Assembly (NCBI GenBank): GCA_037482215.1
Contig: CP148074.1
Coordinates: 1,674,001 to 1,738,000 of the forward strand
Origin: Pseudomonas mendocina
Lineage (GTDB): Bacteria > Pseudomonadota > Gammaproteobacteria > Pseudomonadales > Pseudomonadaceae
Direction: 5' to 3'
DNA: 64,000 nucleotides
Part shown: positions 41,129 to 45,902 of the stretch, piece after piece
Numbering within the stretch: position 1 is the stretch's first letter
How the letters are laid out: every line of letters starts with the position of its first letter
Notes under the pieces: generated by a model
Databases searched by the model: none
Seen by the model: the letters and a program-made list of their open reading frames with translations, nothing else
Told to the model about the DNA's origin: nothing
Made by a program: the position numbers and the translations under genes

Positions 41129-42454
41129 CTACGATGTGAGTCCGACAATTCGGCTCCCCCACATTCGGGCATTGTGGGTGATCCGCTCTTCGTCCATGCG
41201 GGTGAGTTTTCCGCTGTCTAATAAGTGTTTGCCGCCTACCCAAAGGTGTTCAGTACAGGTCCTTCCACCGGCATAAATCAGTTGTGATAGCGGATCATAG
41301 ATGGGCTGCTGTCCCATACCATCGAGGTTGAATACTGCCAGATCAGCGAGTTTCCCCAGTTCCAGTGAGCCGGTCTGTTCATCAAGGCCAAGGGCGCGAG
41401 CGCCATTGAGTGTTGCCATGCGCAGTGCTCGGTGGGCGTCCAGGGCGCTGGCGGAGCCGTGCACTGCCTTGGCTAGCATGGCAGCTGTGCGGGTTTCGCC
41501 GAGTAGATCAAGGTCATTGTTGCTGGCGGCGCCGTCCGTGCCGATGGCGACGTTGACGCCTGCTTGCCAGAGCCTTTCCACCGGGCAAAAGCCGCTGGCC
41601 AGTTTCATATTTGATTCTGGGCAGTGGATGACGCTGGTATTGCTGGCGACCAGTAACTCAAGGTCGTCATCATCTATTTGGGTCATGTGCACGGCCTGGA
41701 AACGCGGCCCCAGGAGGCCCAGGCGTGCAAGGCGGGCCATAGGGCGTTCGCCGCGCTGCTCCAGGCTTTGTTGAACTTCCAGTGCTGTCTCATGGACATG
41801 CATATGGATGCCGGCGTCCAGTTCCTCAGCCAGTATTAGGATGTTTTCCAGTTTGTCATCGCTGACCGTGTAGGGCGCGTGGGGACCAAAGGCGATTTTC
41901 AGGCGCGGGTGGTGGCGCATGTCGTCGAACAGTGTCACTCCCGTGCGCAGGGATTCAGCAGCATCCCGGGCGCCTGGAATGGGAAAGTCCAACACGGGGA
42001 TGGTGATCTGTGCGCGGATTCCGCTCTTGTGAACCTGCTCGCAGGCGGCCTGTGGAAAGAAGTACATATCAGAGAAGCAGCTAATGCCACCTTTGATCTG
42101 TTCAGCAATCGCCAGCTCGGTGCCATCTTGCACGAATTGCTCGTTAACCCATTTGGCCTCGGCTGGCCATATGTGTTTTTCCAGCCAGGTCGACAGTGGC
42201 AGGTCATCGGCTATACCGCGGAACAGGGTCATGGCGGCATGCCCGTGGGCGTTAACCAGTCCAGGTGTCAGGAGCCTGCCCGGTAACTCAAGAGTTTGCC
42301 GGGCTTGATATTTCAGTGCCTCTTCACGTGGAGCAATAAGGGTAATTTTACCGTCTAGAACCCCTAGCGCGTGTTCCTTGAGCAGTACGCCTGCCGGCTC
42401 GACGGGGATCAGCCAACTTGGCAGAAGCAGCAGGTCAAGTAGTGGGCGATCCAT
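41129..42454 (-). CDS. mtaD: TRZ/ATZ family hydrolase, probable MTA/SAH deaminase
   Basis: Amidohydrolase of 441 residues. In P. aeruginosa the gene at this place converts 5'-methylthioadenosine to 5'-methylthioinosine, which a phosphorylase then turns into methylthioribose-1-phosphate. Metal site: [16 protein letters not shown] (HxH), [25 protein letters not shown], and [14 protein letters not shown] with the catalytic Asp. Also the N-terminal [16 protein letters not shown]. It is intact. The next enzyme for its pathway, MtnA, appears to be decayed on the opposite strand immediately beyond its start. Confidence 0.9.
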
Positions 42455-42561
42455 GGGGGAATTCCGAGCCTATTAAAGAAGAAAGGGAGTGTATAGGGGA
42501 ACGCCTGAAGCATGAAGTGTACAGGCCAGTTTCACATGCCGGTTCCGGTATGACTGTGCCT

Positions 42562-42894
42562 GCAGGGGGCGACTATATAGTGACGCGGTTGGTCCGATTT
42601 GTTCCTATCAGCTAGCCATACGGCCATGCATCACGGGGGCGGGGTGATGGTGACCTCTCCCAGTGCACTGATATGACTAAAGGCTATGGTGGTGACGTGA
42701 TTGATGCTGTGTATCCGCTAAAGAGTGGGGCAGAGCCACGCACTGTGGTGGCGGGAGGAGAGGTTTTTAGTCCTTCTTTTGATGTAATGCCTGCAGATCT
42801 GATTGATTTTATGGTGACTGAGAGGGAAGTTGGCATCGCCCTGATGACGAAAAATGGCACAACTCATGTGTCGTCAGTGCCTGCATTGACCTAG
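42562..42894 (+). pseudogene. mtnA: Relic of mtnA (methylthioribose-1-phosphate isomerase), 3' third
   Basis: Between the deaminase gene and gyrA, where Pseudomonas carries mtnA, the plus strand holds pieces of the MtnA C-terminal region in three frames. Frame a (42562 on): AGGDYIVT resembles GADRIxANGD. Frame b (42606 on): YQLAIR resembles TYQLAVN. Frame c (42623 on): AMHHGGGVMVTSPSALI then a stop resembles AMHHG-x3-MVxAPxSTID. Frame a again (42673-42894): VVAGGEVFSPSFDVMPADLIDF then MVTERE resembles the C-terminal VFNPAFDxTPADLI-x3-TE. At least three frame changes and deletions separate them, and the N-terminal part of the enzyme is not recognisable upstream. The enzyme would interconvert MTR-1-P and MTRu-1-P in methionine salvage. 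Confidence 0.75.
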
Positions 42895-42911
42895 GTTGCC
42901 CTTCATGCGTT

Positions 42912-42945
42912 GTACGCTGCACGGTAAGGGATAGGTGCGGCGTAC
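42912..42945 (+). terminator. Hairpin after the mtnA relic
   Basis: GTACGCTGCAC at 42912-42922 pairs with GTGCGGCGTAC at 42935-42945 (11 pairs, one G-T), 12-base loop, then TGTTTGTGG. It probably was the mtnA terminator and still separates the relic from the gyrA leader. Confidence 0.6.

Positions 42946-43127: not shown

Positions 43128-45902
<2,775 letters not shown>

Follow-up and report, generated by a model that had tools for sequence, protein, structure and literature searches.

The window, by which we mean the whole 64,000-nucleotide stretch of Pseudomonas mendocina DNA analyzed here, carries an intact mtaD beside a decayed mtnA. Our full best explanation, to which we give a probability of about 0.85, is that the entire MTA-to-methionine route was lost here step by step, with mtaD left. 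On this reading, the window itself is a commonplace case of a complete salvage route disappearing in steps. The features are as follows, with positions in the window except for the last, which lies elsewhere in the window genome (G000).

41129..42454, minus strand: mtaD, an intact amidohydrolase of the MTA/SAH/5'-deoxyadenosine deaminase type, 441 aa (open reading frame, NF006549, PF01979, dN/dS).
42455..42517, no strand: mtaD upstream region common to relatives, its right edge close to the deletion's left border (alignment to the P. anguilliseptica locus, L032).
42546..42889, plus strand: mtnA remnant, C-terminal third with shifted frames and stops, firm from 42596 (about codon 257) and weak before (tblastn, DNA alignment).
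42912..42945, no strand: hairpin of 11 pairs (one G-U) with a 12-base loop, arms 42912-42922 and 42935-42945 (folding).
43128..45902, plus strand: gyrA, intact, the flank that fixes the synteny with relatives (open reading frame, relatives' loci).
G000:C1:2573764-2574312 (L153:3765-4313), minus strand: MtnD orthologue without metal ligands, 182 aa (PF03079, position).

MtaD scored 707 bits against NF006549 (cut-off 540) and also matched PF01979; the NCBIfam name of the family is TRZ/ATZ family hydrolase only. Against five relatives, its dN/dS was 0.06-0.10, within the range found among those relatives, at high dS values of 1.3-1.9. The gene is intact, as the sequence-only reading had held, and constrained, and it is a deaminase as judged by sequence. 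MtaD may act in the clearance of MTA, SAH or 5'-deoxyadenosine, and the gene is kept under selection, presumably for a role that has ceased to lead to methionine.

The same reading had described a decayed C-terminal third of mtnA in shifting frames, and both tblastn, which it had suggested, and DNA alignment to L032 confirmed this. Two segments of the window were matched by the MtnA proteins of relatives, 42658-42831 (MtnA residues ~281-340) and 42821-42886 (~338-359), with a best combined E of 4.5e-9 for the MtnA of G014 as query; the second segment lies in a different frame from the first and contains two internal stops. Local DNA alignment to L032 also matched 42596-42636, starting near codon 257, and 42778-42889. 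A longer alignment to L032 began at 42546, with weak homology before 42596 that leaves the left edge uncertain, and it contained 12 gaps of 1-6 bases, several of them not multiples of three. The recognizable mtnA pieces in it are spread over all three frames, which makes the earlier description of four fragments a fair one. One open frame across the whole IF-2B domain is absent from the remnant, which holds only the C-terminal part in three frames with stops, and by its sequence the window mtnA is a pseudogene.

On the mtaD side, 42387-42517, comprising the start of mtaD and its upstream region, still aligned to L032, and the interval from 42517 to 42596 spans 78 bases in the window vs 845 in L032. 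The net loss of about 770 bp, covering the mtnA upstream region and the first ~230-256 codons, would most simply be one deletion. In the alignment to L032, the codon of the Cys that we take to be catalytic in MtnA falls in the missing part, while the region of the presumed catalytic Asp lies in a weakly alignable stretch and is unreadable. An assembly or sequencing error, with mtnA intact in the cell, might explain the several one-base gaps relative to a relative's sequence, but we consider it extremely improbable given the ~770 bp net loss, the stops and indels spread through diverged sequence, the two intact flanks, and the one-contig genome. Differences between the remnant and L032 were concentrated at third codon positions (59/114, against 30/111 at first and 32/114 at second positions), and this excess indicates that mtnA was constrained during part of the divergence, with the share due to L032's own branch inseparable.

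The hairpin after the remnant is real in the sense that it folds as the sequence-only reading had described. Its interpretation as a leftover terminator is possible at best, as no clean T run follows it and the same place in four relatives folds into other structures. The G+C content of the window (1-64000) is 54%, compared with 60-62% in the loci of three relatives, and in the DNA tree G000 has the only terminal branch marked as long. Together, these point to a fast, AT-drifting lineage, and with the long branch and odd base composition the tree position of G000 is unsure.

Named loci were fetched with the window MtaD, taking the best 80 of 567 relatives. The five nearest MtaD proteins among these 80, at 82-84% identity, belong to Pseudomonas sp. 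HMWF032, P. anguilliseptica, two gammaproteobacterial MAGs, and P. guineae. An mtnA match adjoins mtaD in 79 of these 80 loci, and mtaD, mtnA, and gyrA occur together in 77. In L088, mtnA was not seen, and its mtaD match begins 258 bases from the end of the available stretch; a gyrA match was absent from L082 and L089.

G000 is a single contig of 4,757,970 bases with a completeness of 100, and a profile search of the whole genome returned no matches to the IF-2B domain PF01008. A second mtnA elsewhere in G000 was rejected on this basis, in line with the earlier suspicion that none exists. Across the genus, an IF-2B match was observed in 395 of 398 genomes, including genomes without the route; those without a match were G000 and two drafts, G320 and G402 (86% and 77% completeness). 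With the set restricted to a completeness of 90% or more and a contamination of 5% or less, the figure was 384/385. In a sample of 59 genomes, mtnA was kept in 25 of the 26 that have no MTIP.

A genome-wide search for mtnB, mtnC, and MTIP/MTAP found none of them over cut-off in G000. There were no matches to TIGR01694 (MTIP/MTAP) or to MtnC, and MtnB had one match, at E 3.8e-6, below cut-off. The only PF01048 (PNP_UDP_1) match, of 77.6 bits, fell within a frame of 501 residues; all 21 genomes compared have a PF01048-matching frame in the range of about 490-620 residues, and we took these frames as AMP nucleosidase on their length alone. The MtnD orthologue was found by a 30-bit PF03079 match in the order aroC, transporter, ARD protein, alkA, while full-route genomes have mtnB, mtnD, and mtnC side by side at the aroC-transporter site. 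At the positions H, H, E, H, which we take to be the metal ligands of ARD (MtnD), it has Q, C, Q, F. The idea that a working MtnD is still present, based on the PF03079 match, was rejected because these ligands are lost.

With MTIP, MtnC, MtnB over cut-off, and the MtnD ligands all missing, the route appears to have been lost as a whole and not at mtnA alone. The sequence-only reading had proposed a salvage route either broken or rerouted, and only the first half of this stands: a rerouting around MtnA alone was set aside because MTIP, MtnC, and MtnB over cut-off are missing too. Its suggestion that methylthioribose-1-phosphate would be a dead end is also not supported, as MTIP/MTAP, the producing enzyme, is itself without a match, and G000 would have no known enzyme making this compound except for a possible side activity of PpnP. 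These absences come from HMM searches, which an unrelated isomerase or phosphorylase could escape. That such an isomerase replaced MtnA and salvage still runs, as the earlier reading had also suggested, is nevertheless very unlikely. Its favorable points are that mtaD is kept and constrained and that PpnP, found in 12/12 genomes searched, could in principle phosphorolyse methylthioinosine (a guess), but the missing enzymes would leave the new isomerase without any known partner.

To place the loss in sequence, 15 named relatives were searched for PF01048, MtnC, and the MtnD ligands. A PF01048 protein comparable in size and score to confirmed MTIP was present in 11 of them, MtnC over cut-off in 3, and all MtnD ligands in 6. 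In HMWF032, P. anguilliseptica, and P. guineae, an MTIP-like protein and a site-intact MtnA occur with a ligand-less MtnD, and MtnC over cut-off is absent. Because the P. anguilliseptica group keeps the upper enzymes in this way, the lower half of the route (MtnC and the MtnD ligands) seems to have gone first, and MTIP and mtnA would have followed later in the window lineage. Both the order and the cause of the loss are inferred from few living relatives.

A trigger, weakly inferred, could have been loss of the main source of MTA, as G000 has no high-scoring spermidine synthase match. Only two of 12 genomes, G019 (full route) and G444, had a PF01564 match above 100 bits, and the other ten (G000, G434-G436, G014, G008, G012, G001, G017, G003) reached about 20-33 bits only. 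However, each of the 12 had at least one PF01564 match over the curated cut-off of 22.9, so an absence of spermidine synthase cannot be claimed; the weak matches may be other or divergent aminopropyltransferases. G444 also counts against the link, as it lost MTIP despite a 140-bit PF01564 match. In this genome (Pseudomonas sp. 5P_3.1_Bac2; L256, G444:C25:166500-170000), we observed only two short PF01048 pieces (39.7 and 29 bits), both within a frame of 221 residues where MTIP may be decaying, as well as a long PF01048 frame and an MtnA without R54, C166, and D246. In the window genome, MtaD might now deaminate trace MTA, 5'-deoxyadenosine, or SAH, and its products might leave the cell or undergo phosphorolysis by an enzyme of broad specificity, for example PpnP; both steps are guesses.

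PMC6302742 describes the MTI-type salvage of P. aeruginosa as deamination of MTA followed by phosphorolysis. The loci studied here resemble that system in their mtaD-mtnA-gyrA order and, for relatives with the full pathway, in the order aroC-transporter-mtnB-mtnD-mtnC; the difference is that in G000 mtaD alone is intact of the route genes. The remaining enzymes of the P. aeruginosa route are MtnA, MtnB, MtnC, and MtnD. Most E. coli, according to PMC6302742 and PMC10986504, have no MTA salvage and export methylthioribose. G000 would be similar as a bacterium that clears MTA without recycling it, but E. coli uses a nucleosidase, whereas the first step in G000 would be deamination, with the 501-residue frame as its sole PF01048 match. 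The DHAP shunt, as outlined in PMC10986504, runs through a nucleosidase and either MtnK or MtnP, followed by MtnA and Ald2. Keeping MtnA without the lower enzymes, as may hold in the P. anguilliseptica group, would resemble this shunt, yet it needs the MtnA that the window genome is missing.

The retention of mtnA elsewhere in the genus was examined at five positions, R54, C166, D246, N256, and K257 (numbered on G011), which we take to be active-site residues of MtnA; in an alignment with the solved MtnA structures 1t9k and 6a34, the residues at C166, D246, N256, and K257 were identical. Within the 59-genome sample, which includes G000, MTIP/MTAP was found in 33 genomes, MtnC in 29, MtnB over cut-off in 28, and a PF03079 match in 58. 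All 58 genomes with mtnA have an MtnA frame of at least 356 residues. All five residues were intact in 33/33 genomes with MTIP vs 5/25 without it (G002, G009, G023, G039, and G051). At least one residue was lost in the other 20 MTIP-less genomes, whose proteins we call site-lost MtnA; C166 was lost in 18/25 (17 Gly, 1 Ala) and N256 in 19/25. Among the 20 site-lost proteins, R54 persists in 18 and K257 in 16, while D246 is present in 15 and replaced by Glu in the remaining five. Two of the 20, from G030 and G037, lost only N256 and may be active. Adding the 15 named relatives, whose site was read without K257, gives 73 genomes with mtnA: 44 with MTIP and an intact site, none with MTIP and a lost site, 6 without MTIP and intact, and 23 without MTIP and lost.

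The 33 MTIP genomes share 209 invariant columns, of which 101 are also invariant in all 20 site-lost sequences; among the 209, changes are most frequent at N256 and C166. By sequence, the pattern is that of an active site dismantled within a kept scaffold, and at about 50-92% identity to intact MtnA, the fold of the site-lost proteins is not doubted. Six loci resembling P. straminea/P. flavescens (L053, L056, L061, L064, L087, and the G001 locus L191) also have an MtnA without the RGAPAIG motif, in an open frame, at about 52-58% identity to intact MtnA.

It was observed that constraint on MtnA after the loss is weaker, still clear, in these sequence comparisons. The median dN/dS of site-lost MtnA was 0.209 over 76 pairs (0.038-0.487), compared with 0.070 over 294 pairs of MTIP genomes, and the four closest site-lost pairs gave 0.146, 0.108, 0.047, and 0.088. 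The G444 MtnA against three MTIP relatives gave 0.24-0.31, and constraint may be weaker soon after the loss. The relatives show two of the marks expected of a pseudoenzyme, catalytic residues lost in an open frame and purifying selection on the protein. It is doubtful that the frame stays open only for transcription into gyrA, or that these genes are slowly dying. This account is favored by mtnA preceding gyrA in the same orientation in 77/80 named loci (exceptions L082, L088, and L089) and by the raised median dN/dS, but the closest pairs, at 0.047-0.146, indicate that residues are kept and not just frame openness, the 101/209 shared columns point the same way, and in the window genome gyrA is present and mtnA absent.

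The losses appear to be recurrent. On the gyrA and mtaD trees, which omit gyrA of G012, G016, and G023 and mtaD of G045 and G057, the minimum number of state changes was 10 or 9 for MTIP and 9 or 7 for the MtnA site. Fisher tests that ignore kinship gave p 2.9e-11 for MtnA and 3.1e-14 for MtnD. In the sign test on the DNA tree, there were 8 independent pairs, with MtnA changing the same way in 5.3 on average and the opposite way in none (median p 0.06). The protein tree gave 5 independent pairs (median p 0.25). Both sign tests are weak, their contrasts being one-directional but few.

MtnD followed a similar course. Its ligands were intact in 29/29 genomes with MtnC vs 2/28 without it, where 26/28 frames had lost at least one ligand (counts that omit G003, with no PF03079 match, and G007, with a match at a contig edge). 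The median dN/dS of ligand-less MtnD was 0.63 over 16 pairs (0.155-0.856), inflated partly by distant pairs and upstream-extended frames (G025, G045, G051); five close pairs gave 0.155-0.232, but G025/G045 gave 0.379. The G000 MtnD against four relatives gave 0.24-0.30 at dS 1.3-1.6, above the 0.13-0.18 found among those relatives, which suggests weaker constraint on it in G000. MtnA and MtnD are separable, as G000 has the MtnD relative without mtnA and G003 has mtnA without a detected MtnD. At G034:C1:2864926-2865494, mtnB lies in two overlapping pieces, each under cut-off, with the rest of the route full; this split is an error or a fresh pseudogene.

We tentatively propose, at somewhat less than even odds, that after MTIP loss Pseudomonas repeatedly made MtnA into a pseudoenzyme, with the catalytic cysteine and nearby site residues disappearing while selection retains the protein. 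Its role next to mtaD would probably be that of a regulator responsive to sugar phosphates or nucleosides, or of a partner protein, comparable to eIF2B alpha, with a pseudo-MtnD also kept and the window genome as a natural knock-out. A serious rival to this preferred guess, although we think it unlikely, is that site-lost MtnA is still an enzyme, one whose substrate has changed or whose cysteine has moved (R247 to C). A Cys at 247, adjoining D246, is present in 12/20 site-lost sequences, R54, D246, and K257 are mostly kept (18/20, 15/20, and 16/20), and the 5/25 MTIP-less genomes with all five residues suggest that site function may persist without MTIP. On the other hand, 6/18 of the C166-lost proteins have no Cys at 247, G039 has both cysteines, and the P. 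straminea-like MtnA is also without the RGAPAIG motif and D246. For the sensor or partner role, which is our guess by analogy, eIF2B alpha offers a precedent for an MtnA-fold protein in sensing, its ancestral catalytic site binding sugar phosphates according to PMC8187479; it differs in being eukaryotic and a subunit of a complex, while site-lost MtnA has no known partner or ligand.

The annotation of these proteins was examined in public homologues of the site-lost MtnA of G017, with 8000 candidates scored. C166 was missing in 71 of the best 120 of 3909 under threshold, including proteins of P. costantinii, P. fluorescens, P. synxantha, P. lactis, P. trivialis, and P. gingeri, and the names shown among these 120 were methylthioribose-1-phosphate isomerase, except for P0040 ('hypothetical protein'). 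No earlier report on site-lost MtnA or MtnD in Pseudomonas was found in searches of open-licence PMC papers. Together, the sequences suggest a repeatedly evolved pseudo-MtnA that is still annotated as the isomerase.

Losing a salvage route is nothing unusual, but the survival of mtnA beyond the route in most of the Pseudomonas examined, often with a dismantled active site in an open frame, is. As a caution, MTA salvage is not predictable from mtnA alone. If site-lost MtnA has another job, the isomerase annotation would be wrong in many genomes. If the pseudoenzyme proposal is true, a bacterial counterpart of the enzyme-to-sensor change in eIF2B would become testable, with the window genome serving as a natural deletion strain.
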